A stretch of DNA of 20,423 nucleotides, taken from the IMG/VR virus record IMGVR_UViG_3300042542_001811, positions 1 to 20,423 of that record. The stretch is one strand, 5' to 3'. The translations under genes were made by a program, and so were the position numbers. This document shows positions 2-15,828 of the stretch, in pieces. Source of the DNA: a virus. Positions within the stretch are counted from its first letter, which is position 1. Each line of letters begins with the position of its first letter. The notes under the pieces are model-generated. The model ran no database searches. It was not told the DNA's origin and was given only the letters and a program-made list of their open reading frames with translations.

Positions 2-118
2 GGCCTGATGGACCTATACTGCGTGGACGACCGCCTCGACATGCTGGAGGGCCTGCAGATCATGGAAACTGCCGCTCTCAGCGCGTTGGCTAAGGGGGAG
101 GATAAGCAGGATGGCTAA
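2..118 (+). CDS. C-terminal end of an upstream tail gene (partial)
   Basis: An open frame enters from the left edge and gives 38 residues before a TAA at 116-118. The visible peptide is acidic with a helical pattern and ends in ALAKGEDKQDG. Its end overlaps the tape measure start by 8 bases, which fits a translationally coupled tail gene. In lambda-like phages the gene directly before the tape measure is the tail assembly chaperone pair (G/GT), so this could be the end of the frameshifted T portion or of its equivalent. That is inference from position only. The peptide is too short to recognise and any slippery site would lie outside the window. Confidence 0.6.
   Translation, partial: GLMDLYCVDDRLDMLEGLQIMETAALSALAKGEDKQDG
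94..101 (+). promoter_or_regulatory. Strong ribosome binding site of the tape measure gene
   Basis: GGGGGAGG lies 9 bases before the ATG at 111. It is one of only two strong Shine-Dalgarno matches I noticed in the window; most other genes rely on stop/start overlaps or have no evident site. It supports the choice of 111 as the start. Confidence 0.75.
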
Positions 119-3100
119 GCAGATTGAGGATATTGTTGTACAGCTAGGTATCCAAGGTTTTGAAGAATTAAATAAGCTACGCAGTTCCTTTAGAGAACTT
201 ACAAAAGTAACAAGAGGTACGGATGATCAGCTTAATGCTGCTCGCAAACGGCTGCTTGAGCTAAAAACCGAATTAGGAGATACCGCCCGAGCTAACAAGG
301 GACTTACCGATGCCTTTACTGCTTTAGTCGGCGAGGCTAGGCGCGGCTCCGACGTATGGCAAAGCCTAAATAAAGACTTGGCACAGTTGCGCCAAGAGTC
401 ACGCCTTACAGACACGCAAATTACAGCCTTGCGTGACATTATTGTCGATGAGTCAAAGGCTCATGCGCAGTCCGCAGTATCTATACGCGAGCATGTAAAA
501 TCTCTTCAAGACCTCAGAAATCAAGCTACCTTAAACGGCAAAGTACACCAGCAGCTAGGCGCAGATATTCAGCGGCTTACAGCTACCTTAGAACAGGGAG
601 AAATAACAAACAGAAAGCATTACAATTCCTTGACCGCCATGCTGGCGGTAAAGCCAGACAAGGTACTTAAGCAATGGGAAGACTACAATCGCATCCTTAA
701 AGAAGGTACTGCATCCGCCGACAAGCTGGCTACGGCACAACGTCGCCTCAATCAGCTTTCTGGCGCCCCACGCATCCTGGAACGCCGCCGCGTAAGCGAA
801 TCCGCAGCAATAACACAAGACCCTGAGTACCTACGCCGTTTTGGGTTTGAAGGTGCCTCCCTGCCCGAATTACCGAATACAAACGCTGCCTACGCACAAC
901 AAATAAAGGAACTGCAGCAAGACCTCGCTAACTTAGACCGCAACAGTATTGAATACCTGCAAACGCTTATGCAGCTGACGGGCGTGCAGCGGCAGTCCAC
1001 TGAGGTGGCACGCGGCTACGCTCAAGCGCTGCTAATGGGCGTACAAACCAAAACCGTAGCAAACAGTACACGCAATTTACAGGAAGTAGTAACAGCGTTG
1101 CGTGCAGAAATGCAGCAACTTGATACCACAACCTCCGAAGGCAGTGCTGCCTACGCACAAAACGCTAACCAGGTTCGTGTTTTAGAAAAACAGCTTAACG
1201 ATCTTGCTGGCGCATATCGTAATGTAAGCACTATGGCGACGCAGGCTGCCACAGCCGAGCAGAACGCCGCTAATAAGCGCATACGCGATAACTATTTCAA
1301 CCGAGCTGCAGTTGCACGCCAGGAGCAGGCGATTGAGGAACTGGGGCGCCGTGTACGTGAAGGTGTGGCTAACACTCCTCTGCTACTACCTGCGGCTGGC
1401 CAAACCTCTGCCGCTGGTACGGGCGCTGCGATTAGCGGCGGTGCCCGTCGTCTCGTTCCAGGGCGCACTGAAGTCACGTTTGGCCCATCCGAAGGTCAAG
1501 CACCCACGAGGGGTAGTCGCGCGTTCCTCGATGAGCGTGCGGTTCTACGTGGTGGCGATCTGCCTAGCGCTGCTGTAGGCGTATCTCCAGCACTAGGGGG
1601 ACAGTTAGCCGCTCAATTCGACAATTTGGGCAAATCTGCCGAACGAGCACGCCGCCCCTTGCGCGACATTTATGTTGATATTGATAAGACTACAAAAGCA
1701 AGTAACGGCAGCGTAAATAGTCTGGAAGCGCAGATAGGCGCTTGGACAGAACTACGCAATGCCGTTGGCCGTACCGCGCCCGCTTTTGATACAGCAACTA
1801 AGAAACTGGAGCAGCTCACGGCACGACGCGAGCGTCTTACCGGGGGCCGCCGCCTAAGCGGGATGCAGCTCGCCCAGGGCGTCGGCGCGGCGCTTAGTGG
1901 TGGCATTTTTGGCGGCCCCGAGGGCCTGATCGGCGGTCTCGGCGGCTTGGCCGTGGGCGGCGTGGGCGGCGCCTTCGCTGGCGCAGCCGCTGGTGCGCAG
2001 GTCGGCATGTTCCGCCAGCAGCTCAGTGGCGTCACCGACTATTCGGCCCGCATCGACAAGCTGCAGATCGCTCTGCGGGGCATTCTTGGCTCCCAGGACG
2101 CTTACACCCGCGCTTTGGCAGCTGCTGACTCCGCGACCCGCGATCTCAACATCCCCCAGGAGATTGCGATCCGAAGCATGACCCAACTGAGTGCCGCTGT
2201 GACCGGCGCCGGTGGAACGGTTACCGACTCGGCCTTCGCGTTCCGTGCAGTAAGCGAGGCAGTGAAAGCCACTGGTGGCAACGCCGAGCAGGCCGATGGC
2301 GCCCTTCTCGCACTCACGCAGGTCTTCTCCAAAGGCAAGGTCAGCGCCGAAGAACTTAACCAAATCGCTGAGCGTCTACCCGGCACATTTGTCCTATTCG
2401 CCAAGGCGGCCGGCATGACCGGCCCTCAACTGCAGAAGGCGCTCCAGGAAGGCCAAGTAGGTCTGAACGACCTAATGAAGTTCCTGCAGCTAATCAGTAC
2501 TGAGTACGGACAAACGGCACTCAAGATCGCCAAGTCCAGCCAAGAAGCCGGCGCTCGTTTGACAGTTGCAATGCAAAACATGCAACTAGAGGTAGGACGC
2601 GCTCTGCAACCTCTGGGTGCCGATTTGCAAAACGCATTTGCCATATTTATAACCGACATCACACCTGCCGTAGTCGCTGCTGCACAAGGGTTTGTGGGCG
2701 TGGCTAAGGCAATCGGTGCTGCCGGTGATGCGTTTATGGATTTCACAGCACCTGTACGGGATTTCTTCGCCACGGGAATGCCTGCATACCTACAGGTTGC
2801 TAAAGCGTTTTGGGATAGTATCGCCAACGATGTCTCTGCGTTCTGGACTCGTATTGGCAGTTTCTTCACAGGATTGCAAACAATAAGCTCTACAGCGTTA
2901 AAGGCTATCGGTATAGACGTGGGAGGGCTAGGAGATACCATGCAGATAGTGGCCACTAATGTAGGTAAGTTCTGGTCTAGCATTTTTGACTTCATCAAAG
3001 GCCGCTGGCGCGAAACCGTCAGCAACATGATCAACTACAGCAATCCTTTGCTGGCGGGCCTCAAACTGCTTGGAATTGCAGATGTAGGCCAGGCTGTAAC

Positions 3101-5186
3101 AAAGGGTATAGCGGCGGGTGCTACCGCAATGTCACCTATATTTAAGCTTCCGCAGGCGCAGCAGAGCACTGCAGAAAGCCCGTCCGTATTCCCCTCCCCT
3201 GCCACAGACGAGGAAAAGAAGAAAAAAGCAGCCAAGGACAAAGCAGAGAGAGAGCGCCAAGCCGCGGCCGCCGAACAGCAGCGCCTGGCCAACACCCTGC
3301 TCGACCAGCAGCTGCGTGCAGCCGACAGGGTATTCCAGCACCAAATCGAGCTGGACCGTCAACGCTACGAACTACAAAAACGCCTAGACGACGCCCAAGC
3401 ACAGAATCGCATCATGCGCGAAACTGGTGCAGCACGCGACATCGTAAGCAACTTTGAGGATCTGCAGCGCAGCCTCCGCGAAATCGAGGAGCGCCGTGTC
3501 CGCGCAGTTCAAGACGTACGCCTGGCCAAGCAGACGCAACAAAGCGCTGCAGTACGTGCCACCTTTGCAGACCAAGGTGCAGCGGCACTAAGCGCCGGTG
3601 GTACGGGCATCAGTGCTACTGCCATCGCAAAGGCAACTGCAGAGGCAGCAAAATTCACAGGCATCGCAAACCAGTGCTCTGAGGCTGTTAAGAGCTTCTA
3701 CAAGTCTTTAGGTATAACTTTGCCCGGTGTAACTGCATGGGCAGACACAGTACGCAATGCAGGTACGGTTATGCGGGACTGGAGTAAACTGCGTCCCGGC
3801 GATATTGTTGCTACTGGGCGTCCCGGCGATACTCCGCATGTAGGCGTGTATACAGGTGGAAATAATGTGTTCCACCAGTCTCGTAAGCGCGGTCTTACTG
3901 CTGGTAACTACCCCGATTTGGATTATTTCAAATCAGGGTATTTCGTACGTCCCACACAATCTGCCGGAACCGCGCGGATGCCCACAGGCGCCGCAGCCCA
4001 GCAGAATCGCGCAATCAGAGCGAGCGGTGGTGCGGTTATCGAGGGTCTCGACGTAAACAAGGCCGAAGCGCAGCTACAACTTATCGAAGCCAACGTATCT
4101 AAGGAACGCGCTACCTTATTTGAGCAATTCACGCTCAAGGCCACAGATGCCCTTAGGCAACAAAACGCGACAATGCGCGATAGTAACGAACTGCAGACTC
4201 TGCGTAACCGCCTCACCCTAGAAGGCGTGCGCCCTGAGTTTGTAGACCTGGAAGAACGCTTACTCGGTATCAGGCAAGAGCAAAACCAAGCACAAACTAC
4301 GTACAATCAGCTTGTTAAAGCTAACCCCGATAGAGCAGCCGAACTTCAGAGCGTCTTAGCTGCGCAGAACGAACAGTACGCCGAGCGTGCGCGGCTTTTG
4401 CGAGAAAATGCAGAAGCTGCAGAAGCCTTCAACAAGGCGATGCGCACTCGCCAAGACGAGCGCATCGGCCTCGGCCTACGCGAAGGCGCCGAAGCTTACG
4501 TCCAGTCGATCGGCACCATGCGCGAGGCCACGGCCCAGCTCGCCCAGACCGGCATCAAGGGTGTCGAGGACGCCATCTTCAGCCTCGTCACCACCGGCAC
4601 CGCCAACTTCCGCGAGTTCGCCGCCTCGATCCTTAGGGATACGGCTCGCATGATCATTCAGCAAATGGTGCTGCGCAGCATCATGCAGATCATCAGCGCC
4701 GTTGCTCCTGGCGGTGGTGGCTTCGGTAAGGGGTACTTCGATCCGATGACGGGTCTGGGGACTGCTGGTCCGAATTTCGGCTTCGCCAAGGGCGGTGTAT
4801 TCGGCGCCAACAGCATTCAGCCCTTTGCCATGGGTGGCACGTTCCCACGCAACGTCACCGCTTACGCCATGGGCGGCATCGTCGATAAGCCGACGCTGTT
4901 CCCCTTCGCCAACGGCGGCGCCGGCCGCCTCGGGCTTATGGGTGAGGCTGGCCCGGAAGCGATCATGCCGCTCCGCCGCCTCCCCAGCGGGAGGCTGGGC
5001 GTCGAGGCAGGCGGCGCTGGAACGGGCGTCGTCGTCAACGTGAACGTGGACGCCAAGGGGACGGCAGCAGAAAGCGATCAAAGCAACAGTAAGGCACTCG
5101 GAGAAGTATTAGGCGTAGCAGTACGTGCTGAGTTGATTCAACAGCAACGCCCAGGGGGGCTGCTAGACCCCAACCGCAGGCGATGA
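111..5186 (+). CDS. Tail tape measure protein with internal NlpC/P60 peptidase domain
   Basis: This 1691-aa protein is the internal ruler and scaffold of the tail tube and is thought to be ejected into the cell with the DNA. Residues 1-560 are largely helical and polar. A glycine-rich hydrophobic stretch (about 578-633) precedes a typical tape measure domain (about 643-800, with an AEELNQIAERLPG-type core). A charged coiled coil lies at about 1033-1100. Residues about 1175-1290 form an NlpC/P60-like domain with Cys1189 (NQCSEAV), His1243 (PHVGVYTG) and His1255, spaced 12 apart as in that family. The C-terminus (about 1499-1540) resembles the lambda tape measure C-terminal region (FREFAASILRDTARMIIQQ). 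The ruler relation implies a long tail, roughly 200-250 nm (inference). Two segments, about 1840-2470 and 4440-5070, are clearly GC-richer than the rest. The stop overlaps the next start as ATGA. Confidence 0.95.
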   Translation: MAKQIEDIVVQLGIQGFEELNKLRSSFRELTKVTRGTDDQLNAARKRLLELKTELGDTARANKGLTDAFTALVGEARRGSDVWQSLNKDLAQLRQESRLTDTQITALRDIIVDESKAHAQSAVSIREHVKSLQDLRNQATLNGKVHQQLGADIQRLTATLEQGEITNRKHYNSLTAMLAVKPDKVLKQWEDYNRILKEGTASADKLATAQRRLNQLSGAPRILERRRVSESAAITQDPEYLRRFGFEGASLPELPNTNAAYAQQIKELQQDLANLDRNSIEYLQTLMQLTGVQRQSTEVARGYAQALLMGVQTKTVANSTRNLQEVVTALRAEMQQLDTTTSEGSAAYAQNANQVRVLEKQLNDLAGAYRNVSTMATQAATAEQNAANKRIRDNYFNRAAVARQEQAIEELGRRVREGVANTPLLLPAAGQTSAAGTGAAISGGARRLVPGRTEVTFGPSEGQAPTRGSRAFLDERAVLRGGDLPSAAVGVSPALGGQLAAQFDNLGKSAERARRPLRDIYVDIDKTTKASNGSVNSLEAQIGAWTELRNAVGRTAPAFDTATKKLEQLTARRERLTGGRRLSGMQLAQGVGAALSGGIFGGPEGLIGGLGGLAVGGVGGAFAGAAAGAQVGMFRQQLSGVTDYSARIDKLQIALRGILGSQDAYTRALAAADSATRDLNIPQEIAIRSMTQLSAAVTGAGGTVTDSAFAFRAVSEAVKATGGNAEQADGALLALTQVFSKGKVSAEELNQIAERLPGTFVLFAKAAGMTGPQLQKALQEGQVGLNDLMKFLQLISTEYGQTALKIAKSSQEAGARLTVAMQNMQLEVGRALQPLGADLQNAFAIFITDITPAVVAAAQGFVGVAKAIGAAGDAFMDFTAPVRDFFATGMPAYLQVAKAFWDSIANDVSAFWTRIGSFFTGLQTISSTALKAIGIDVGGLGDTMQIVATNVGKFWSSIFDFIKGRWRETVSNMINYSNPLLAGLKLLGIADVGQAVTKGIAAGATAMSPIFKLPQAQQSTAESPSVFPSPATDEEKKKKAAKDKAERERQAAAAEQQRLANTLLDQQLRAADRVFQHQIELDRQRYELQKRLDDAQAQNRIMRETGAARDIVSNFEDLQRSLREIEERRVRAVQDVRLAKQTQQSAAVRATFADQGAAALSAGGTGISATAIAKATAEAAKFTGIANQCSEAVKSFYKSLGITLPGVTAWADTVRNAGTVMRDWSKLRPGDIVATGRPGDTPHVGVYTGGNNVFHQSRKRGLTAGNYPDLDYFKSGYFVRPTQSAGTARMPTGAAAQQNRAIRASGGAVIEGLDVNKAEAQLQLIEANVSKERATLFEQFTLKATDALRQQNATMRDSNELQTLRNRLTLEGVRPEFVDLEERLLGIRQEQNQAQTTYNQLVKANPDRAAELQSVLAAQNEQYAERARLLRENAEAAEAFNKAMRTRQDERIGLGLREGAEAYVQSIGTMREATAQLAQTGIKGVEDAIFSLVTTGTANFREFAASILRDTARMIIQQMVLRSIMQIISAVAPGGGGFGKGYFDPMTGLGTAGPNFGFAKGGVFGANSIQPFAMGGTFPRNVTAYAMGGIVDKPTLFPFANGGAGRLGLMGEAGPEAIMPLRRLPSGRLGVEAGGAGTGVVVNVNVDAKGTAAESDQSNSKALGEVLGVAVRAELIQQQRPGGLLDPNRRR
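3791..3831 (+). repeat. 14-bp direct repeat inside the NlpC/P60 domain
   Basis: GCGTCCCGGCGATA occurs at 3791-3804 and again at 3818-3831, a period of 27 bases (9 codons). Both copies are in frame and encode an RPGD motif, so the domain carries RPGDIVATG followed by RPGDTPHVG. The second copy sits directly before the catalytic histidine. The first copy corresponds to the PGD turn usual in NlpC/P60 proteins; the second may be a local duplication. Confidence 0.7.
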
Positions 5187-6271
5187 CGACGTTTACATAC
5201 ACACCTGATTTTCCTGCAGAAGAGCGGTCACGCCCGCGTGTTCGTAGCTACGAGGCAGATGGATTTGCGCTTCGCGCAGAAGATGGCATAAACCTCCTCA
5301 CAGATAAGTGGCCGCTTACATTTTCCGCTCGCAGCTCCACCGAGCGCACCAATCTGCTGAGCTTCTTCGCCACGCAAAACGGTAAACTTCCGTTTACGTG
5401 GACTACACCTTTCAATGAAACGGGTCAATTTGTATGCACCGCATGGGATCTAACCTTAGACTCCTGCAATTTAACTACTATTTCAGCCCTATTTGAGCTT
5501 GTATACGTTCCAGGGGCAACCAATATCCCTGTAACTAACGTACCCACTTCAGCCTTTACATGGCTTCCAGATTTCACTACCTCCAGAAGCGTAGATACTA
5601 AAACACGTAGATTAGAGTTTGGTGAGGGATATAGTCAATCTGTAACCATAGGCATTCACGCTGAAACCGAGAAGTGGTCCCTTACCCTAAATAACCTGAC
5701 TAATGCTCGGCGCGACGACATCCGAGCGTTTTTACGTGGAGCGGCTCGTGTTGCGTCCTTTGCGTGGCAAAACCCCCTAGGCGAAAACGGAGAATATATT
5801 TGCGAGGAATGGACAACAACGTACACTAAGTTTAACAATAGTTCTATACGTGCCGAGTTCACGCGCATTTATGGCACACTAGCAGTAACATTTAATGCGT
5901 ATGCTTCCGGCTTTAGCGAGGTAGTATCTTACGAGCTTGCAGGAGGCACCGCTTACGCATCCGCTCCGGGCTTTACAGTTAGCGTAGAGTTGGAGTTCAC
6001 AACATCGGGTACTGCTTCTACAGCGGCGCCAGGATTTAATGAAAGCGTAAACGCAGAGTTTACTGGAGGCGTAGCGTATGCACCGGGCGGTGGACCGCCG
6101 AGTCCAGGTGCAGGCGCCAGTGGGAGCTTCTGGAGCGACTGGGCCTACTACGATCCTGACATCTTCCTGTACGTCGAAGAAGTAACAGTTGCGAGCACAG
6201 CACCCGTCTACTGGAACAGGTGGCAGTCCTGGACTGAAGACCCTCCACTGCTATTTGAGGAGTCGTCCTAA
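5183..6271 (+). CDS. Minor tail protein M family, with duplicated domain
   Basis: The 362-aa product has two tandem copies of the phage minor tail protein M fold, at about residues 3-109 (from TYTPDFPAEER) and 125-230 (from TWLPDFTTSRS, containing RRLEFGEGYSQ). Each ends in a strand ending in FELVY or FTRIYG. Lambda M is about 109 aa, so this is a two-domain version. Residues 238-300 hold about three imperfect repeats built on AYAS-x-GF and ending in a Gly-Gly or Ser-Gly turn. A Pro/Gly linker and an aromatic acidic tail follow. M proteins act in tail tip assembly next to the tape measure, and the position directly after the tape measure gene agrees. The start overlaps the tape measure stop (ATGA at 5183-5186). 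A 50-base gap (6272-6321) without a recognisable signal follows. Confidence 0.85.
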   Translation: MTTFTYTPDFPAEERSRPRVRSYEADGFALRAEDGINLLTDKWPLTFSARSSTERTNLLSFFATQNGKLPFTWTTPFNETGQFVCTAWDLTLDSCNLTTISALFELVYVPGATNIPVTNVPTSAFTWLPDFTTSRSVDTKTRRLEFGEGYSQSVTIGIHAETEKWSLTLNNLTNARRDDIRAFLRGAARVASFAWQNPLGENGEYICEEWTTTYTKFNNSSIRAEFTRIYGTLAVTFNAYASGFSEVVSYELAGGTAYASAPGFTVSVELEFTTSGTASTAAPGFNESVNAEFTGGVAYAPGGGPPSPGAGASGSFWSDWAYYDPDIFLYVEEVTVASTAPVYWNRWQSWTEDPPLLFEESS

Positions 6272-6321: not shown

Positions 6322-6690
6322 ATGGCAGCCCCCAACATCAAAAGCGGTAGCTCCGTCACGACCGTCACCGGCAAAACGGTTGGGTACGCAGTGACAACCT
6401 CAATGGCTGCAGCGCTGAGCAACGGGTCTAGCAGCGGCAAGGTGCTGAAGATCAATTCGGTGTACTGCGCCAACGTGGACGGCACCGCAGCAGCTGACAT
6501 CAGCCTGGAGCACTACAACGGCACCACCGGCTTCGCCATCGGCAAGACGATCACCGTGCCAGCTGATGCCACGCAGGTGCTGGTAACCCGCGAGGCTTAC
6601 ATCTATCTGGAGGAAGGCCACAGCCTCCGAGCACAGGCCAGCGCCACTGGCGACCTGGAGCTGGTCATCAGCTACGAGGACATCAGCTGA
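6322..6690 (+). CDS. Small phage structural protein (fibre-associated, conserved hypothetical)
   Basis: A 122-aa protein rich in Ala, Ser, Thr and Val with an alternating beta-strand pattern and no signal peptide or membrane segment. It contains SSGKVLKINSVY, a VDGTAAADISLEHYNG segment, ITVPADATQVLV and the ending LELVISYEDIS. From memory this resembles a short structural protein that recurs in cyanophage and other marine phage tail regions, of unknown function. Its position opens the accessory block between M and L and it is coupled to the LamG gene by a TGATG overlap, so a role as a fibre or virion surface component is likely. It is GC-rich compared with the M gene before it. The function assignment is inference. 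Confidence 0.75.
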   Translation: MAAPNIKSGSSVTTVTGKTVGYAVTTSMAAALSNGSSSGKVLKINSVYCANVDGTAAADISLEHYNGTTGFAIGKTITVPADATQVLVTREAYIYLEEGHSLRAQASATGDLELVISYEDIS

Positions 6691-7487
6691 TGCTTGGCTT
6701 CAACGGCGGTTTGATCGGCAAGAGGCGCAAGCAGGAAGCCACGACGCCAGGGCTGTGGTTTCCGAATGAACGCGCAATAATTGCAGGTTCGGATTCGTAC
6801 TGGGACAACGTGTCGCTGCTGCTGCACATGGATGGCAGCAACGGCAGTACAACATTCACCGATAGCAGCAGTAATACTTTGACAGCCACCATTTATGGTG
6901 ACGCGCAAATAAGCACAGCTCAAAGCAAATTTGGTGGATCGTCTGGTGTATTTGACAAGACTGCCGACCGCCTGACATACGCCAATAGCGGCTTTGAATT
7001 TGGAACAGGAGACTTTACTATCGAAGCGTGGATTTATAGTCGCGATGTCAGTTCAGCGGCTTCAAGGGGATGGCTGCAGACTTCGTCAACTGCAGGCGGT
7101 CTGCAGGCTTCTTACAATGACGGTCTATCAATCCTGCAAGGAGCTAACGCCGCAGGCGGCAGCGCAGACGGCGGCATTTGCATTGCCATGAGCGGTAACG
7201 TTTTTATAGGATCATCCGGCTCAACTGTGGTTTTATTTACAAATCAATGGCAACACATAGCCGTAACGCGCTCCGGCACAACTGTTAGAGTATTTGTTGA
7301 CGGCGTGCTTGTAGGTACTTCAACAGGTGTAACGGCTAACCTCACGGGCCAGAACCTAGTTGTTGGGGGGTATTACGATACCGGCTTTTTATTTGACGGC
7401 TACATAGACGAATTGCGCATCACGAAAGGAATCAGCAGGTACAACGCGACGTTCACCCCATCGGGCGCTCCCTTCCCTAACGGCTGA
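6690..7487 (+). CDS. LamG/concanavalin A-like domain tail protein, copy 1
   Basis: The 265-aa product has a short basic N-terminus (GGLIGKRRKQ then TTPGLWFPNE) followed by a LamG-like jelly roll at about residues 39-262. The hallmarks are VSLLLHMDGSNGSTTFTDSS near the start, FEFGTGDFTIEAWIYS in the middle, WQHIAVTRSGTTVRVFVDG, and GYIDELRITKG near the end. Such domains bind carbohydrate and in phages act as fibre or decoration modules that may contact the host surface. It is a paralogue of the gene at 7903, sharing N-terminal and core motifs. The N-terminal basic/GGL motif shared by both copies may attach the protein to the virion (inference). It is coupled at both ends by TGATG overlaps (6688-6692 and 7485-7489). 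Confidence 0.88.
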   Translation: MLGFNGGLIGKRRKQEATTPGLWFPNERAIIAGSDSYWDNVSLLLHMDGSNGSTTFTDSSSNTLTATIYGDAQISTAQSKFGGSSGVFDKTADRLTYANSGFEFGTGDFTIEAWIYSRDVSSAASRGWLQTSSTAGGLQASYNDGLSILQGANAAGGSADGGICIAMSGNVFIGSSGSTVVLFTNQWQHIAVTRSGTTVRVFVDGVLVGTSTGVTANLTGQNLVVGGYYDTGFLFDGYIDELRITKGISRYNATFTPSGAPFPNG

Positions 7488-7900
7488 TGCTCTACTCCCA
7501 CCGCCAAGCCACTCCCGCGCTCCTGCCCCACCGCATCCGCTTTGCGGACGGCAGCACCCGCACGGACGCCAGCACCTTCACGCCTGACGAGCTGGAGCGT
7601 GCCGGTTACAGCGGCCCGTTCGAGCGCCCCGAGTGCAACCCGAAGCTGGAAACAATCGACTGGGACGGCAGCGCCTTTGTGGTGCGTCCCTACAGCTTCA
7701 ATGAGTTGCAAACGCAGCACGCCAAGGTCCGCGAACGGCGCATCGAACTGCTCAAGGCCAGCGACTGGACGCAGATCACCGACTACGACCTCGGTGCCGA
7801 TCGTGACGCCTGGGCCGCCTACCGCCAGGCACTGCGCGACCTGGCTGATGTCGCTAACCCGTTCGACATCACCTGGCCGCAGCCACCCACTACCGCCTAA
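7487..7900 (+). CDS. Tail fibre assembly chaperone-like protein (Phage_tail_APC type)
   Basis: A 137-aa protein. The N-terminus carries an RIRFADGSTRTDAS segment. The C-terminal half matches the phage tail assembly chaperone pattern: a RERRIELLKASDWTQ helix (about 82-96), then AWAAYRQALRDLA (108-120) and a final ITWPQPP. Proteins with this signature usually sit directly after a fibre or adhesin gene and help fold it, as here after LamG copy 1. It starts inside the LamG stop codon. The DNA is GC-rich and C-ending in codon choice. A truncated copy of its first 24 or so codons occurs after LamG copy 2. Confidence 0.85.
   Translation: MLYSHRQATPALLPHRIRFADGSTRTDASTFTPDELERAGYSGPFERPECNPKLETIDWDGSAFVVRPYSFNELQTQHAKVRERRIELLKASDWTQITDYDLGADRDAWAAYRQALRDLADVANPFDITWPQPPTTA
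7522..7557 (+). repeat. 36-bp repeat, copy A (in the intact chaperone gene)
   Basis: Bases 7522-7557 are identical to 8750-8785. They encode LPHRIRFADGST. The copies lie at the 5' ends of the intact and the truncated chaperone genes and mark the duplication of the LamG-chaperone cassette. Confidence 0.95.
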
Positions 7901-7902
7901 CC

Positions 7903-8715
7903 ATGTCCCCCGTATTCGCCACCAACGGCGGCCTCTCCGGCGCCAAGCGCACAACGACTACCAGCAGCGCTCCAGGCATCTGGATGCTGGAGGAACAGGC
8001 AGTGGCTAGGCGTGCCAACATCTGGCCACGTACAGACGATGAATACTTCGCCAACGTAAGCCTGCTGCTGCACATGGATGGCAGCAACGGCAGCACTACG
8101 TTTACGGATAACAGCAGCAACGGGTTTACAGTCACGGCTAATGGCAACGCGCAGATAAGCACGGCTCAGAGCAAATGGGGCGGTGCAAGCGGATACTTTG
8201 ACGGTGCAGGAGACTTTCTGACTGTTCCGGTCAATAGTGCATTTGAGCTTGGCACAGGTGATTTTGATGTAGAACTGTGGGCTCGGTTTGATTCTGTTAA
8301 TTCATTAACTCCATTAGTCAACCTTGGCGTTGGCGCCATCGGGGGCGGGTCTCCAACTACATCCGGTTGGGCGTTATTTTGGCAAACAGATAATACACTT
8401 GCCTGGTATAGATTTGATGGGACGACTTCAACAATAACTAGCCGCGCATGGACCCCAGTTGTTAATACATGGTATTTCATCAGGGCCACTAGAAGCGGCA
8501 CTAATCTGCGACTTTTGGTAGACAATACACAACTTGGCGCAACGGCTACAGACTCAACAAGTTACAACAAGATCAACGACGATGATCTGTACGTAGGTCG
8601 TTTGATTACTGGCGGTGGAACTTTTTACATGCCGGGCTACATCGACGATCTCCGCATAACCAAAGGCGTTGCCCGCTCAGATGTACTTCCGAGTGGCCCC
8701 TTCCCGAACGGCTGA
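7903..8715 (+). CDS. LamG/concanavalin A-like domain tail protein, copy 2
   Basis: The 270-aa paralogue of the 6690 gene has an N-terminal NGGLSGAKR stretch, then SSAPGIWMLEEQ, and a LamG fold at about residues 50-267. It keeps VSLLLHMDGSNGSTTFTDNS, AQISTAQSKWGG, FELGTGDFDVELWARF, a WYFIRATRSGTNLRLLVDN strand and GYIDDLRITKG. The two genes share an identical 32-bp stretch (6816-6847 and 8062-8093). The middles differ, which suggests diversification of the ligand-binding face while framework and attachment parts stay the same (inference). The start is 2 bases after the chaperone stop, and its own stop overlaps the chaperone remnant as TGATG. Confidence 0.88.
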   Translation: MSPVFATNGGLSGAKRTTTTSSAPGIWMLEEQAVARRANIWPRTDDEYFANVSLLLHMDGSNGSTTFTDNSSNGFTVTANGNAQISTAQSKWGGASGYFDGAGDFLTVPVNSAFELGTGDFDVELWARFDSVNSLTPLVNLGVGAIGGGSPTTSGWALFWQTDNTLAWYRFDGTTSTITSRAWTPVVNTWYFIRATRSGTNLRLLVDNTQLGATATDSTSYNKINDDDLYVGRLITGGGTFYMPGYIDDLRITKGVARSDVLPSGPFPNG

Positions 8716-8810
8716 TGCTTTACTCCCACAACGCCACCGCTCCGTCATCCCTGCCCCACCGCATCCGCTTTGCGGACGGCAGCACTTACTGCACTGCGCA
8801 TGTATGCTGA
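8715..8810 (+). pseudogene. Truncated second copy of the tail fibre assembly chaperone
   Basis: Starting in the LamG stop codon (TGATG, as for the intact gene), a 31-codon frame begins MLYSHNATAPSSLPHRIRFA and continues to DGST, then diverges into YCTAHVC and stops at 8808-8810. The intact gene begins MLYSHRQATPALLPHRIRFA. The 100 or so residues holding the chaperone helices are missing. It may still be translated as a 31-aa peptide, but the chaperone function should be lost. The following 47 bases (8811-8857) hold no further homology that I can see. Confidence 0.85.
8750..8785 (+). repeat. 36-bp repeat, copy B (in the chaperone remnant)
   Basis: Identical over 36 bases to 7522-7557. Homology between the two loci extends back with mismatches to the TGATG start and ends just after this block at about 8786, which puts the breakpoint of the deletion there. 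Confidence 0.95.
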
Positions 8811-8857: not shown

Positions 8858-9280
8858 ATGGCCAGCGTAATTTACCTATCGTGCATAGATGACAGCGCTA
8901 AAGGTAATTTAGACTTCGATACTAATACGTTTAAGGTTTTGCTAGTTTCATCCGGTTATACGCCGAACAAACTTACGCATACTAAACGATCCGACATTAC
9001 TAATGAAGTCAGTGGTACTGGTTACACCGCTGGCGGCATTACCTGTACTTGTACCGTAACAAAGTCCACAGCTAACAACGAAGTAACACTTACATTTAGC
9101 GCGGTAAACTGGCCTACAGCCTCGTTCACGGCCAGGGGTGCTGTGTACTATAGAGCGCGAGGTGGAGCGTCATCCGCAGATGAACTCGTTGGTTATGACG
9201 ATTTTGGCGCAAATGTTACCAGCAGTGGCGCTACGTTTTTCCTCGATGCGTCGGTACTAACACTGCGTAACCTGACATGA
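8858..9280 (+). CDS. Conserved phage structural protein of unknown function
   Basis: A 140-aa, mostly beta-strand protein starting MASVIYLSCIDDSAKGNLDF. It contains FKVLLVSSGYTPNKLTHTKRSD, TNEVSGTGYTAGG, a WPTASFTARGAVYYRARGG segment and DELVGYDDFG. I recognise this as a protein found near tail or head structural genes in many phages, including cyanophages, with no established role. Codon choice returns here to the AT-richer GTA-using style after the GC-rich cassette. Its stop overlaps the next start as ATGA. Function unknown; a minor virion component is most likely given its place in the late operon. Confidence 0.75.
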   Translation: MASVIYLSCIDDSAKGNLDFDTNTFKVLLVSSGYTPNKLTHTKRSDITNEVSGTGYTAGGITCTCTVTKSTANNEVTLTFSAVNWPTASFTARGAVYYRARGGASSADELVGYDDFGANVTSSGATFFLDASVLTLRNLT

Positions 9281-9707: not shown

Positions 9708-10442
9708 ATGAGTACCATAGTCAGCGCATTACAAGGCGTCGATCCAGGCACTATCATCGAGCTGTACCAATTAGAACTTAATGCGACGCAACATGGTATC
9801 AACCTCACCAACTACTTTCACGCAGGCGTAAACGAAATAGAGACGGCGATAGTTTGGCAAACAAACACATATCAAGCGCTTCCTATCAAAGCGGAGGGTT
9901 TTCAATGGGAAGGCGAAGGCTCCTTACCGCGTCCAAAACTCCTGGTTGCTAATGTTCTGGGCACTATAACCAACGCCTTGCTTAGCCTTCCATCTGGTCT
10001 GGAAGGTGCCAAAGTAACACGCATACGCACCCTGGCACGCTACCTGGATGCTGTAAACTTCTCCACAAATACTAACCCCACTGCAGATCCTACCGCAGAA
10101 TGGCCCCGTGAAATTTACTATGTAGATAGAAAAGCGGCCGAGACACGCGATGTTGTAGAACTTGAACTCGCCAGTGCATTTGACTTAGCTGCGGTAAGAG
10201 CACCTAAGCGACAGTGCGTAGCTAGGTGCCAATGGGTGTACCGTTCACCCGAGTGTAGCTATGCAGGAACAGTATATTTTGACGCTAATGACAATCCCGT
10301 AGCTTCCCCCGCATTGGACGTATGCGGAAAGCGGGTAACAAGTTGCGAAAAGAGGTTCACGGCATTCTTCGCGCAGTACAACTTGCCGCTAGACAGCCTT
10401 CCATTTGGCGGCTACCCTGGTATCGGTACGTTCTTCGTATAA
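9708..10442 (+). CDS. Minor tail protein L (iron-sulfur tail tip protein)
   Basis: The 244-aa product matches the lambda L family: an N-terminal beta domain with FQWEGEGSLPRPKLLVAN, an EWPREIYYVDRKA strand, then a cysteine-rich C-terminal domain ending LPFGGYPGIGTFFV. Cysteines stand at 170, 174, 183, 206 and 213. The set 174/183/206/213 has the spacing expected for the four conserved ligands of the iron-sulfur cluster described for lambda L-type tail tip proteins. L proteins bridge M and the K/I/J tip complex. It is followed three bases later by K, as in lambda. Cys170 is an extra cysteine of unknown role. Confidence 0.9.
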   Translation: MSTIVSALQGVDPGTIIELYQLELNATQHGINLTNYFHAGVNEIETAIVWQTNTYQALPIKAEGFQWEGEGSLPRPKLLVANVLGTITNALLSLPSGLEGAKVTRIRTLARYLDAVNFSTNTNPTADPTAEWPREIYYVDRKAAETRDVVELELASAFDLAAVRAPKRQCVARCQWVYRSPECSYAGTVYFDANDNPVASPALDVCGKRVTSCEKRFTAFFAQYNLPLDSLPFGGYPGIGTFFV

Positions 10443-10445
10443 GCC

Positions 10446-11150
10446 ATGGATTGGAAAAGCCACGCACTTGAACATGCTAAGGAGCAGTTTCCTAAAGAAA
10501 GTTGTGGCCTTGTTGTAGTTGTAAAAGGTAAAAAAATCTACTGGCCGTGCGCTAATATCGCTTCTGATTCAGAGCAGATGTTTGTGATAGAGCCAAGTGA
10601 TTACGCTTCCGCAGAAGATACTGGCGAAGTTAGCGCCGTAGTGCATAGCCATCCTGTTACGCCTGCTGTTCCTAGTGACGCAGACAAAGTAGCTGCTGAA
10701 AAAACGGGAGTACCGTGGTATATCGTAAGCCCTGTTACGGAGTCGTGGGGAGAGTACATTCCCTGCGGCTACACCTCCCCGCTTATCGGTCGCAGATGGG
10801 TATGGGCGGTACAAGACTGCTGGACGCTGGCACGAGACTGGTACGCCGAGCAAGGCATTGCACTTCCCGACTGGGACAGACCGTTGAACCCGCAAGACTT
10901 TATCAACTCTCCGCGCTTTGACAGCTGCTGGAACGAAGCAGGTTTCCGCGAACTGCAAGAGGACGAAGAGTTGCAACCAGGAGACGGCCTACTTATGTCT
11001 ATACGCTGCGCCGCAGGACTAAACCATTGCGGCATCTACATCGGCGAAGGCATGATTCTACACCACATGCAAGGGCGCTTAAGCAGCCGCGACCTCTACG
11101 GCGGTTGGCTGGTAAAGTGTACCGGGAGGAGACTTCGCTATGCTTCGTAG
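10446..11150 (+). CDS. Tail assembly protein K: JAMM metalloprotease plus NlpC/P60 peptidase
   Basis: The 234-aa product has two enzyme domains. Residues 1-105 form a JAB/MPN domain with Glu18 and the exact JAMM motif His67-x-His69-x7-Ser77-x2-Asp80 (HSHPVTPAVPSDAD). Residues about 118-230 form an NlpC/P60 domain with Cys125 (QDCWTL), His194 (LNHCGIYIG) and His206. Lambda K has the same architecture and is needed for tail tip assembly; the peptidase domain may also cut peptidoglycan at entry. Active-site residues appear complete in both domains. Its stop lies inside the start region of I (11-base overlap). No clear ribosome binding site precedes its start. Confidence 0.93.
   Translation: MDWKSHALEHAKEQFPKESCGLVVVVKGKKIYWPCANIASDSEQMFVIEPSDYASAEDTGEVSAVVHSHPVTPAVPSDADKVAAEKTGVPWYIVSPVTESWGEYIPCGYTSPLIGRRWVWAVQDCWTLARDWYAEQGIALPDWDRPLNPQDFINSPRFDSCWNEAGFRELQEDEELQPGDGLLMSIRCAAGLNHCGIYIGEGMILHHMQGRLSSRDLYGGWLVKCTGRRLRYAS
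11124..11131 (+). promoter_or_regulatory. Strong ribosome binding site of the tail assembly I gene
   Basis: GGGAGGAG lies 8 bases before the ATG at 11140, within the end of the K gene. It fixes the start of the next gene and would keep I translation high even where coupling is weak. Confidence 0.7.
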
Positions 11151-12075
11151 AATACGGTTATACGGTGCGCTTGCCAAGTTTGTTGGTACTCGTGTCTTGT
11201 ATGCTGATGTAAGCAGCGCTGCTGACGCAGTGCGTTTTTTAGTTGCTAATTTTGCAGGTATTGAGCAGCACATGAGCGACAGCTACTATAAAGTTGCTGT
11301 CGGCACGTACACCCTGGCCGAGGACGATCTTCACGCACCAGTAGGCAGCCAAGACATCCAAATCGTTCCAGTCATAGGTGGCGCTGGCGCGGTAGGACGC
11401 ATCATCCTCGGTGTTGTGCTTATCGGTCTTTCGTTTATTCCAGGTATCGGTGCCCTTGTAGCTCCTGTGCTCTTCGGCTTAGGCGCGAGTCTGGTACTGG
11501 GCGGGGTTTCGCAACTGCTTACGCCGGTCCCGGTCCTACCTAAAGGGCAAGACAGACAGGACGATCCACAAAAAAGTTATAGTTTTTCGGGTGTTCAGCA
11601 AACATCACGTCAAGGCATTCCGGTTCCCATTGTGTACGGGAAGCGTCTAACAGGCAGCGTAGTCATTTCTGCTGGTGTAAGCACCGACGTACCAGCCGGA
11701 GATTACGCGGCCTCATACACATACCCTGGACACATCGACACGTCTACACGCTTTAAGTATTTGGTTTTTTATGACTGGGATACTTGTCTATTCGGCCCTA
11801 ATGGCGTTATAGAAAACGGTAATGCTATCGACGGCGCCAACGGCTGGCTTGTCGATGGGCGGGTTTTACTTAGACCTATATCCAATACGCAAGCGGTCGT
11901 CGTCTGGGCTACTGGAAACATGACATCAATATACGCTCCTAGCACAGTTGTTGGTATCACTACGCTTTATTCAGCAGGTGTTATAGTTTCCAACACTGTA
12001 ACGCGCACAGCTTCCGCTTGCGGAGATAATTATTGGATACGCTCAGAGTTAACCAACACGTTTGTGGCACCATGA
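11140..12075 (+). CDS. Tail assembly protein I family with novel C-terminal extension
   Basis: The 311-aa product begins with a ubiquitin-like (beta-grasp) domain (about 1-78, RRIRLYGALAKFVG through IQIVPVIGG). A glycine-rich hydrophobic helical region (about 79-130, with IILGVVLIGLSFIPGIGALV) follows, then the conserved SYSFSGVQQTSRQGIPVPIV and YGKRLTGSVVISAGV segment (146-180) that normally ends such proteins. Lambda I is about 223 aa. Here about 125 further residues (183-311) follow, strand-rich, with Cys at about 212 and 295, that I do not recognise. The gene is coupled to J by an ATGA overlap (12072-12075). Lambda I is needed for tail tip assembly and is thought not to remain in the virion; whether the extension changes that is unknown. 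Confidence 0.85.
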   Translation: MLRRIRLYGALAKFVGTRVLYADVSSAADAVRFLVANFAGIEQHMSDSYYKVAVGTYTLAEDDLHAPVGSQDIQIVPVIGGAGAVGRIILGVVLIGLSFIPGIGALVAPVLFGLGASLVLGGVSQLLTPVPVLPKGQDRQDDPQKSYSFSGVQQTSRQGIPVPIVYGKRLTGSVVISAGVSTDVPAGDYAASYTYPGHIDTSTRFKYLVFYDWDTCLFGPNGVIENGNAIDGANGWLVDGRVLLRPISNTQAVVVWATGNMTSIYAPSTVVGITTLYSAGVIVSNTVTRTASACGDNYWIRSELTNTFVAP

Positions 12076-14753
12076 CTAGCGACCGTAACTCGATTATCGG
12101 TGCTGGCGGAGGCGGATGTTTCACGCCTGACACGCTGGTGCGTACACCTAACGGTGATGTAAGCATTGCGACTATAAAAGCTGGAGACACAGTTATCGCG
12201 TTTGATGATACGGGAGCGCTGCATGAAGCCTCCGTATTGGCCGTACACGTACACGAAGATCACGAAGTATTTAGATACAACTTATGGGGTTCCCGCTATA
12301 TCGACGCTACGCCTAACCATTGGGTACTTAACCAGTTCAACACGTTTGTAGAGATAAGCACACTGAGTTTAGACGACTGTTTCGTAGACGTAAATAACCA
12401 CCTGCGCCCGTACAAAGGGTGCGCAAAACTACCTAACACAGCTGTATACAATCTTACAGTAGATAAGTATCACACATTTATAGCTAACGGCATCCGCGTT
12501 CACAACGCGGGTTTAGGCGCGGACACCATCGCCGGATCTGGAGGCGGTGGCGGGAAAGGACAGGGCGGCGGCGGAACCCGCGTGCCGGTAACAGCCCCAG
12601 ATAGTCTTAACTCCGTACAGTACGCGCATGTCCTTGACCTAATCTCTGAGGGCGAAATAGAAGGTCTAGTCGATGGCCTAAAATCTGTATACATAAATAA
12701 TACGCCGCTACAAAATAACGACAACAGCTACAACTTTGAGGACGTAGAACTATTTACGCAGAATGGTACTCAAGACCAAGGTTGGGTGCCGTTGGGTTCG
12801 GGTGGTGTTGAAAACGAGGTAAACGTAGGTGTTACGGTACGTCAAGCCATACCTATTACCCGTTCTATTACAAACTCGGAGGTAGACGCAGTACGAGTAA
12901 AGATTGCAATCCCTGCGCTGCAATCCATCGACAACACCAACGGTGATACCTACGGTACATCCGTAACGCTGCGCATATCCGTACAGTACAGCGGCACTGG
13001 GTTCGTCGATGCAGTCGTCGATACTATATCTGGCAGAACTTCCGATAGATACGACAAACAGTATGTCGTAGCCCTGAACAGTAGGACGCCAGGAGTGGTT
13101 GTTGATGTGCGTGTAACTAGAGTTACTGCAGATAGCGGAAGTCAGCTGCTCAGCAACGAGTTCTCTTGGACTAGCTACACGGAGATAACATACATTCGTC
13201 TTGCATACCCAAACAGCGCCCTTATAGGTCTACGAGTAAACGCACAGCAGTTCAATTCCGTACCACAGCGCAGTTACCTGATTAAAGGTATAAAAGTTCA
13301 AATACCTTCTGGGGTCACAGTAGACTCCACCACGGGACGGATTATCTACCCAACAAACTTCGTCTGGAACGGCACATTTAGCTCTGCCGTTTGGACCTCC
13401 TGCCCTTCCTGGATTTTGTGGGACTTGCTTACCGATAGCCGTTACGGATTCGGTGATCACATCGCACCAGGGCAACTCGATAAGTGGGCATTTTTTGCCG
13501 CATCGAAGTACGCTAACGAGCTTGTAGCCGATGGCTTCGGAGGACAAGAAGCCCGCTTCTCGTGCAACGCGGTTATCCAAACATCAGACGACGCATACAA
13601 GCTCATCAATGATTTACTTTCTGTCATGCGGTGTCAGGGTTTCTGGGCGTCTGGTGCGTTAACTATCGCACAGGACAGACCCGCAGACCCGGTATATCTA
13701 TTCAGCCCAGCCAACGTGTCTAAGGAAGGCTTCAGCTATAGCGGATCAAGCCTAAAGGCACGGCCGAACGTGGCTGTTATTAGCTACTTCGACAACGATC
13801 TACGCGATATTGGGTATGAGGCAGTTGAGGATATTGCATCCGTAGATAAGTATGGTGTGGTTAGAGCTGATATTACAGCTTTTGCTTGTACCAGTAGAGG
13901 TCAGGCGAATCGAATAGGTAGATGGCTGCTCTACACGGAACAGAACGAAACAGAAGTTGTATCGTTTAAGTGTGGTGTTGAAGCGGGTTATCAGGTGCGT
14001 CCTGGGCAACTCGTTCGCATCGCCGATCCGCTGCGCATGGGTTCGCGCAGAGCAGGGAGAATTGCAGCCGCTACTACTTCGCAAGTAACTGTAGACAACG
14101 CTGCTGAAACAGATTTATCAGGTAGCCTAATTCAAGCTGTACTTCACGTTATCCTGCCTACAGGCGTAGTAGAGTCCCGTGGCATAAGCAGCATTGCAGG
14201 CGGTGTAATTTATGTAAGCACGCCGTTCAGCGTAGCCCCTAATGTAAATTCTGTATGGATTATTGAAAACCCAACTGTGGCGCCCTCCACGTGGCGTGTA
14301 GTCAGTGTTAAGGAGGAAGATGCTACAACTTATGTTGTATCGGCTCTAGCATATTCTGCAGCTAAATATGGATACGTCGAGGCAGGCGAAAAACTAGCCC
14401 CACGCAGTCTGACAAACCTCAATCCACTGCCGCCAGCTCCCACTGACGTACGCGGCATCGAAGCCGACGTTGACATAAATGGCGTAATCGTAAAAAAGGT
14501 TGTATTTACCTGGGTGCCTCCCCAGGGTATAGCTCAATTCCGCGTGCGCTATCGCTACGAATCCGACAACTTTACAACGCTAGTAGTACAGGGCACAACC
14601 TTTGAAATTGTGGGTGCATTAGCTGGTACTTACTACATACAGGTAAACGGCATCACCGCTAGCGGAGAAGTCACCTTGGCTAGCTTGGGGCAATATCAGG
14701 TAGGCCCATACGTTGACACAGGCTACTGGGCTAGCGACTACACGGCTAGTTAA
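12072..14753 (+). CDS. Tip attachment / host specificity protein J with inserted Hint (mini-intein) domain
   Basis: The 893-aa product is a lambda J family tail tip protein. I chose the ATG at 12072 because it overlaps the I stop as ATGA; an upstream ATG at 12033 would add 13 residues. Residues 1-15 end in a glycine run, 16-145 are a Hint domain (separate entry), and 146-175 are a second glycine-rich stretch. The J core then starts with VQYAHVLDLISEGEIEGLVDG-type residues at 182-202. WTSCPSWILWDLLTDSRYGF is the conserved mid-region. A FnIII-like domain lies at about 789-865. Lambda J is about 1130 aa; this protein stops soon after one FnIII-like segment, so the long C-terminal receptor-binding part is missing. 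Host binding may depend on the LamG proteins (inference). Confidence 0.92.
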   Translation: MTSDRNSIIGAGGGGCFTPDTLVRTPNGDVSIATIKAGDTVIAFDDTGALHEASVLAVHVHEDHEVFRYNLWGSRYIDATPNHWVLNQFNTFVEISTLSLDDCFVDVNNHLRPYKGCAKLPNTAVYNLTVDKYHTFIANGIRVHNAGLGADTIAGSGGGGGKGQGGGGTRVPVTAPDSLNSVQYAHVLDLISEGEIEGLVDGLKSVYINNTPLQNNDNSYNFEDVELFTQNGTQDQGWVPLGSGGVENEVNVGVTVRQAIPITRSITNSEVDAVRVKIAIPALQSIDNTNGDTYGTSVTLRISVQYSGTGFVDAVVDTISGRTSDRYDKQYVVALNSRTPGVVVDVRVTRVTADSGSQLLSNEFSWTSYTEITYIRLAYPNSALIGLRVNAQQFNSVPQRSYLIKGIKVQIPSGVTVDSTTGRIIYPTNFVWNGTFSSAVWTSCPSWILWDLLTDSRYGFGDHIAPGQLDKWAFFAASKYANELVADGFGGQEARFSCNAVIQTSDDAYKLINDLLSVMRCQGFWASGALTIAQDRPADPVYLFSPANVSKEGFSYSGSSLKARPNVAVISYFDNDLRDIGYEAVEDIASVDKYGVVRADITAFACTSRGQANRIGRWLLYTEQNETEVVSFKCGVEAGYQVRPGQLVRIADPLRMGSRRAGRIAAATTSQVTVDNAAETDLSGSLIQAVLHVILPTGVVESRGISSIAGGVIYVSTPFSVAPNVNSVWIIENPTVAPSTWRVVSVKEEDATTYVVSALAYSAAKYGYVEAGEKLAPRSLTNLNPLPPAPTDVRGIEADVDINGVIVKKVVFTWVPPQGIAQFRVRYRYESDNFTTLVVQGTTFEIVGALAGTYYIQVNGITASGEVTLASLGQYQVGPYVDTGYWASDYTAS
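12117..12506 (+). other. Hint / mini-intein domain inside J (residues 16-145)
   Basis: A 130-residue Hint module interrupts the glycine-rich N-terminus of J. It begins with Cys16 (block A: CFTPDTLVRTPNGDVSIATI then KAGDTVIAFD). It has a block B TPNH motif (DATPNHWVLNQ), a block F-like YNLTVDKYHTFIANGI, and ends RVHN with His144-Asn145. The next residue is Ala146, not Cys, Ser or Thr. There is no room for a homing endonuclease. Excision would join one glycine run to another and restore a normal J start. The +1 Ala resembles bacterial intein-like (BIL type A) domains, for which cleavage or splicing without a standard +1 nucleophile has been reported. The DNA matches its surroundings in codon style, so it is not obviously a recent insertion. 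Confidence 0.88.
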
Positions 14754-15188: not shown

Positions 15189-15326
15189 ATGACTGTCAAA
15201 AGCAAAACCGGCACCGCTCGCGTCGAGCACGTACCAGGTAAGCCCAAGCTCACCCGCCAAGGTCAGGGCCAGCACAGCAAACCCAGCCACGGCCGAAAGC
15301 TGCGCTGCGGCCAAGGTAAGCCGTAG
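15189..15326 (+). CDS. Small basic protein of cyanophage type
   Basis: A 45-codon gene giving MTVKSKTGTARVEHVPGKPK followed by LTRQGQGQHSKPSHGRK and a GQGKP end. It is very basic, Gly/Lys/Arg/Gln-rich, and probably disordered. From memory it closely resembles a short basic protein found in many cyanophages (start KSKT-x-x-x-RVEH, middle TRQG, end RGQG). Its function is not known; its composition suggests nucleic-acid binding (inference). It is the first plus-strand gene after J and the minus-strand gene, so it opens the lysis segment. Two hairpins overlap or follow its stop codon. No ribosome binding site is evident. Confidence 0.75.
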   Translation: MTVKSKTGTARVEHVPGKPKLTRQGQGQHSKPSHGRKLRCGQGKP

Positions 15327-15567: not shown

Positions 15568-15828
15568 ATGGGCGAGCCAACGCACGGCGAGATCCTCCGC
15601 GCCATCGGCGTGCTGGAAGGCCAACTCAAGCAGCTTCTCGACGCCGCCATAAGCGACAAAGGGGAACGCAGCAGCTTGGGCGTTCGTGTTGGCCGCCTTG
15701 AAACGCGCATGGCGCAAGTAATCATCCTCGCAGTGGTTGCTGCAATGCTCAGCCCCATCATCTGGTCTGAGATTAAAGGCGCCTTTGCTTATCGGCAGTC
15801 GCTTCCTCAACACATGCAACGCCCATGA
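15568..15828 (+). CDS. Holin-like coiled-coil protein with one membrane segment
   Basis: An 86-aa protein. Residues 1-50 form a charged amphipathic helix (EILRAIGVLEGQLKQLLDAA, then LGVRVGRLETRM). Residues 49-68 form one membrane-spanning segment (MAQVIILAVVAAMLSPIIW), followed by a short polar tail. This coiled-coil plus single C-proximal membrane segment layout is typical of small proteins just before phage endolysin genes (haemolysin XhlA/holin-like types). Its stop overlaps the endolysin start as ATGA (15825-15828), giving strong genetic coupling to cell lysis. Whether it is the holin, a pinholin-like partner or a membrane accessory cannot be decided from sequence. Confidence 0.75.
   Translation: MGEPTHGEILRAIGVLEGQLKQLLDAAISDKGERSSLGVRVGRLETRMAQVIILAVVAAMLSPIIWSEIKGAFAYRQSLPQHMQRP

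Follow-up and report, generated by a model that had tools for sequence, protein, structure and literature searches.

Exchange of receptor-binding proteins together with their chaperones is already known. In P2, Mu, lambda, and E. coli prophages, the 3' ends of tail fibre genes and an assembly gene, tfa, are exchanged horizontally, and these tail fibre/tfa modules include truncated tfa remnants and gene fragments left at the exchange site; in Mu and P1, an invertase swaps the fibre ends. The tail fibre/tfa module was reportedly the subject of work by Haggard-Ljungquist in 1992. The locus described here lies in an entire viral metagenome record of 20,423 bases (the whole stretch analyzed, hereafter the window) and resembles the tfa modules in its exchanged 3' ends, its assembly gene, and its leftover fragments. 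Whereas Mu and P1 use an invertase, we saw no inverted arrangement or invertase here: the genes of the locus are all on the plus strand, and the Mu/P1-type invertase family had no match among the proteins scanned, which comprise part of the window's ORFs.

In the R-type syringacins, the receptor-binding protein and its chaperone are replaced jointly by localized recombination, with a change in target range (PMC6331570). The present locus is alike in placing adhesin and chaperone between conserved flanks, with similarity low in the middle and high outside (PMC6331570). In the syringacins, what is exchanged is a pair, one adhesin with one chaperone, and experiments have shown retargeting (PMC6331570); our locus, known from sequence, can hold several adhesins beside one chaperone, and truncated chaperone starts recur. 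The Alteromonas phages A5 and V22 have tail fibre/chaperone modules in common and, in the available part of that account, production of one fibre does not depend on its chaperone (PMC10579305). As far as that part goes, the likeness lies in a host-recognition module with a dedicated chaperone common to distantly related phages, and the difference in longer tail fibres, another protein set, and no description of chaperone stubs (PMC10579305). Literature titles and abstracts yielded no report of such stubs. The new elements here are the slots, the recurrence of stubs, and the pattern of a single intact chaperone.

The best isolated relative of the window's left gene, adhesins, and chaperone is the Synechococcus phage S-SKS1, in which SWZG_00009 to SWZG_00006 (L240, 4722-8504) keep the window's order of left gene (52% identical), LamG adhesins with an MLGFNGG start, and chaperone (44%). 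S-SKS1 differs in being a T4-like cyanomyovirus of 208 kb with two longer, two-domain adhesins before one chaperone, and its proteins are only 42-52% identical to those of the window. The same gene order in this phage indicates that the module is common to very different tail types.

The putative adhesin locus and its tail operon

The window carries the following genes in and around the locus:

111-5186: tape measure, lambda-type tail gene
5183-6271: minor tail protein M, lambda-type tail gene
6322-6690, plus strand: conserved left-border gene, 122 aa, preceding the adhesin slot in 80 distinct loci and in S-SKS1
6690-7487, plus strand: LamG1, putative adhesin of slot 1, 265 aa, with an N terminus (MLGFNGG..) typical of the first slot and a ConA-like body
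7487-7900, plus strand: predicted tail-fibre assembly chaperone (Phage_tail_APC, PF16778), 137 aa, the sole intact one at the locus
7903-8715, plus strand: LamG2, putative adhesin of slot 2, 270 aa, its body 85-87% identical to the LamG of L083/L009
8715-8810, plus strand: chaperone stub, 31 codons, MLYSHNATAPSSLPHRIRFADGSTYCTAHVC then stop, without the PF16778 domain (residues 79-134 of the intact protein)
8858-9280, plus strand: conserved right-border gene, phrog_644, function unknown
9708-10442: gpL, lambda-type tail gene
10446-11150: gpK-like, lambda-type tail gene
11140-12075: gpI-like, lambda-type tail gene
12033-14753: gpJ-like, lambda-type tail gene

The interval from M to L thus reads 122-aa gene, LamG1, chaperone, LamG2, 31-codon stub, and two small genes. 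The ORF positions agree with the original prediction, made from this DNA without database searches, which had placed two LamG genes, an intact chaperone, and a 31-codon stub within 6690-8810. It had also described TGATG coupling after each LamG gene, and the stop codon of each does overlap the next ATG in this way. The left-border gene has no match in Pfam or PHROG.

Because the best isolated relatives are S-SKS1 for the left gene, adhesins, and chaperone and Synechococcus phage S-H1 for gpL (50%), the host of this lambda-tailed phage is probably a picocyanobacterium. A search of the locus DNA against isolated phages was without match, and a hunt for host prophages by way of chaperone relatives in bacterial and archaeal genomes confirmed none.

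Several features lie outside the locus. The gpJ-like ORF begins with a Hint/intein-like domain (PF07591, 3e-9, residues 35-160, ending in HN then Ala) that precedes the usual glycine-rich gpJ start; the domain is present in the gpJ of L159 and L160, and the gpJ matches of L058, L097, and L037 start at residue 171. The gpI-like ORF (311 aa) extends ≈128 aa beyond its family match (residues 2-183) and overlaps the start of the gpJ ORF by 43 bases. An endolysin-like ORF at 15825-17003 combines a phage lysozyme domain with a C39/C70-like cysteine peptidase domain. A 45-aa ORF at 15189-15326 (MTVKSKTGTARVEHV..) comes directly after an adhesin and an 18-codon stub in L109, L129, L150, and L276, so that the L-K-I-J block lies elsewhere there. 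Toward its end, gpM of L068 (4513-4790) contains one W-(S/H)-x-W...YD-x-x-IFLY segment more than gpM of the window (about 6125-6186).

Relationship of LamG1 and LamG2

LamG1 scores above the Pfam cut-off for Laminin_G_3 (PF13385; 69.3 bits versus 27.6), and its closest relatives are 52-55% identical, none exceeding 55%. LamG2 falls below the Pfam cut-off (PF02210; 16.8 bits versus 22.9), matches PHROG 24074 at 8e-43, and is 73-77% identical to the LamG proteins of L084-L086. Its structure model is a confident ConA-like jelly-roll (pLDDT 84) that matches the S-SKS1 LamG protein (TM 0.68) and the tailspike of cyanophage Pan3 (9vyh; TM 0.51). PDB matches of this model to clostridial neurotoxin binding domains, at ≈15% identity, were set aside as reflecting the common jelly-roll fold and not kinship with toxins. 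Our best guess from the tail-operon position, the modular N terminus, and the partner chaperone is that LamG1 and LamG2 are receptor-binding adhesins, which would bind cell-surface glycans.

The two proteins resemble one another far beyond chance, with 44% identity by BLASTP (4e-50) and 42% in the family alignment. Their genes share a 32-bp block, the longest exact match between them:

6816-6847, plus strand: 32-bp block, LamG1 copy, coding for LLLHMDGSNGS and also found in other phages
8062-8093, plus strand: 32-bp block, LamG2 copy, an exact match to the LamG1 copy

LamG pairs in our set have a median identity of 49%, so this pair is below average; 93% of pairs are at least as similar. LamG1 ranks 43rd among the 46 relatives of LamG2, and LamG2 44th among the 46 of LamG1. 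In a tree of 47 rows with 200 bootstrap trees, LamG2 groups with L083 to L086 (support 100/100) and LamG1 with L003, L098, and L093 (96/99); a clade of LamG1 and LamG2 occurs in 0 of the 200 trees. LamG1 and LamG2 appear to come from different sources and not from one copied gene. The identity ranks and the separate, well-supported clades lead us to reject a tandem duplication of the LamG cassette, as the original prediction had seen it; that claim was to be given up if the two genes proved no closer to each other than to unrelated phage LamG proteins, which is what ranks and clades show. An ancient duplication may have predated the swaps described below and been hidden by them.

The chaperone stub and junctions between sister phages

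The intact chaperone exceeds the PF16778 cut-off (57.2 bits versus 26.6) over residues 79-134, its C-terminal APC domain, and a chaperone function is predicted from this family membership; its structure model was too weak for use (pLDDT 60). The protein is 82-93% identical across 35 aligned loci, and the mean DNA identity of the gene across phages is 87%. The stub is recognizably related to it, both as protein (1.2e-7) and as a DNA profile (3.9e-16), yet it aligns solely to chaperone residues 1-28 and ends at residue 31. With a chaperone start and without the conserved domain, it should not work as a chaperone, and the single intact chaperone would assist whichever adhesins need it.

The following elements mark the repeat shared by chaperone and stub and the candidate crossovers:

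6690-6719, plus strand: left crossover zone, the first 10 codons of adhesin 1, where DNA identity to L160 and L068 stops
7522-7557, plus strand: 36-bp block, chaperone copy, identical to the stub
7903-8028, plus strand: slot-2 N-terminal segment of LamG2, as in L068 adhesin B, and 95% identical over 42 aa with L093
8011-8028, plus strand: candidate crossover between slot-2 N terminus and LamG body, the sole overlap of the L068 and L159 homologies
8750-8785, plus strand: 36-bp block, stub copy, identical to the chaperone; candidate right crossover zone

The 36-bp block is the longest exact match between chaperone and stub. Since the gene averages 87% identity at the DNA level, a block of this kind is no surprise when two copies are compared. 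The repeats that the original prediction had singled out are real, but they are not special to the window: six further contigs contain the 32-bp block exactly, and two (L111 and L112) contain 35 of the 36 bp. The start of the window stub resembles the chaperone start of L122 (42 of 43 nt, 8701-8743) more closely than that of its own neighboring chaperone.

All close relatives of the window are metagenomic, partial contigs. Three of them, the sisters L068, L159, and L160, have the same stub ending, TACTGCACTGCGCATGTATGCTGA, and following spacer as the window, and the four contigs carry different alleles in their 5' parts. Identity to the window in the flanks is 96-98% for L159 and L160 and mostly 88-97% for L068. 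Among viral contigs, the exact 33-bp 3' end of the stub is found beyond the window only in L159 and L160, and that of L068 differs by one base. L068 (record 3300043773_001103) carries the left gene, adhesin A, an intact chaperone, adhesin B with a LamG2-like N terminus and another body, and the stub. L160 (3300042879_001360) has the left gene, adhesin A, and the stub, with no chaperone at the locus and no PF16778 domain in the whole 16-kb record. In L159 (3300032318_001296), tandem LamG genes have a 16-codon stub between two of them and are followed by the 31-codon stub.

Adhesin A is the same gene in L160 and L068 (93%), and the two loci differ by one chaperone and adhesin unit. Just before the L068 chaperone ATG, L160 and L068 have the same sequence, and from the ATG on L160 equals the L068 stub except for one base; the junction lies inside a 30-bp identical repeat at the start codons of chaperone and stub. 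We infer homologous recombination between chaperone start and stub, which could have been either a loss from an L068-like locus or, in reverse, a gain from an L160-like one.

LamG2 is itself a mosaic. Its first 126 bases match L068 adhesin B and the remainder matches the L159 LamG, with the L068 match spanning 7487-8028 and the L159 match starting at 8011. L068 adhesin B and L093 join a slot-2 N-terminal segment like that of LamG2 to other bodies, and L009 joins a slot-1 N terminus to a LamG2-like body. These mosaics, together with the stub start, indicate that each slot retains its N-terminal segment and that it is the bodies that move. The locus thus has the conserved flanks, divergent adhesins, and sharp junctions between sister phages of an exchangeable module, and the stub is most likely what recombination at the conserved start of the chaperone gene left behind, now fixed in the lineage.

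In L036 (5395-5700) and L103 (6777-6977), chaperone starts are fused out of frame to the apparent 3' end of another adhesin type, as though one crossover had landed within the next adhesin.

Census of loci and alternative readings

Loci were collected by likeness to the window's proteins, so the counts that follow hold within this sample and are not frequencies in nature. Among 100 distinct chaperone-start contexts in the fetched loci, 79 belonged to intact genes and 17 to truncated ones, whose endings were of at least seven kinds. Complete loci, from the left gene through the right border, numbered 80 distinct, and 60 of these have one adhesin and one chaperone. The arrangement adhesin-chaperone-adhesin-stub occurs in five (the window, L249/L068, L036, L263/L093, and L129), an adhesin with only a stub in four, and one adhesin with neither chaperone nor stub in another five; one locus has three ORFs and no chaperone, and five combine one chaperone with several ORFs of adhesin size, some of the extra adhesins being long ORFs called by size alone. 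Two intact chaperones were found in 0 of the 80, which fits the suggestion that the intact chaperone of the window may serve both adhesins. Ten loci have adhesins without an intact chaperone, so the chaperone is not always present, and no PF16778 domain was found elsewhere on stub-only contigs of 32, 21, and 16 kb. By analogy with the one Alteromonas fibre, as far as the available part of that account goes, these loci suggest that an adhesin may be made regardless of a chaperone.

A recent tandem duplication of the LamG-chaperone cassette in the window phage, with later decay of the second chaperone, would explain why gene order and motifs repeat and why the 32-bp and 36-bp blocks are identical. 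Both blocks are common to other phages, however, the similarity of LamG1 to LamG2 is below that of a typical LamG pair and the two fall in different clades, the 5' part of the stub is nearest to another phage's chaperone, and the stub occurs in sisters that lack LamG1. We regard this reading as very improbable. The original prediction had the second chaperone caught decaying in place, and the same stub ending in three sisters, one of which carries just one adhesin and lacks an intact chaperone, speaks against that too. A chimeric assembly joined at short repeats is also very improbable: the junctions do lie in repeats, the usual site of misassembly, and the data are all metagenomic, but the same stub ending appears in four separate records, other stub types also recur in several records, and the repeats are merely about 30-36 bp.

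The stub might instead be retained for a function, either as a short leader that keeps operon translation coupled or as a short peptide. Within each type, no member has an interrupted frame (31 codons, n = 4; 18 codons, n = 4; 14-17 codons, n = 4), and the 14-17-codon versions stop just ahead of the next adhesin ATG. We nevertheless think this unlikely, given that endings vary, that the L091 remnant has a stop at codon 3, that synonymous diversity at the chaperone start is not reduced, and that the window stub ends 47 nt before the next gene, which makes coupling there doubtful. Synonymous diversity at the chaperone start is ordinary for the gene, no DNA-level constraint was seen there, and the idea of a special constraint of this kind was dropped. 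An active switch would be a way of varying adhesins inside a single phage population, with repeats mediating loss and gain of a chaperone and adhesin unit; we judge it quite improbable. L160 and L068 do differ by exactly that unit, with the junction in a short repeat; they are nonetheless different records that lie 2-7% apart next to the junction, there is no sign of switching within one population, and no recombinase gene was found among the genes scanned.

We consider it likely, with good confidence, that this is a receptor-binding locus that swaps lectin-like adhesins between conserved genes and that the stub is a lineage-fixed footprint of recombination. Genes for ConA/LamG jelly-roll adhesins would be exchanged between the left gene (6322-6690) and the right gene (8858-9280), with two slots that each keep their own conserved N-terminal segment and receive binding bodies swapped among phages. 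On the left side, swaps would rely on similar DNA in the N-terminal codons of the adhesins, and on the right side on similar DNA in the conserved start of the chaperone gene. More tentatively, the first 25-75 bp of the chaperone gene, which are conserved, may serve as a joint that each adhesin gene carries at its 3' end and that can be used repeatedly. Recombination between such joints would add or remove adhesin units, so that versions of one phage could exist with one, two, or many adhesins but at most a single intact chaperone.

The original picture of two adhesins, with one intact and one truncated chaperone, at a locus that gains or loses adhesins holds, and its duplication story is corrected into a swap story. 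The sister phages catch the gain or loss of an adhesin at the nucleotide level. Why multi-adhesin loci never keep two chaperones is a testable question that this raises, and the chaperone stub would offer a readable mark of past adhesin exchange in environmental phages.
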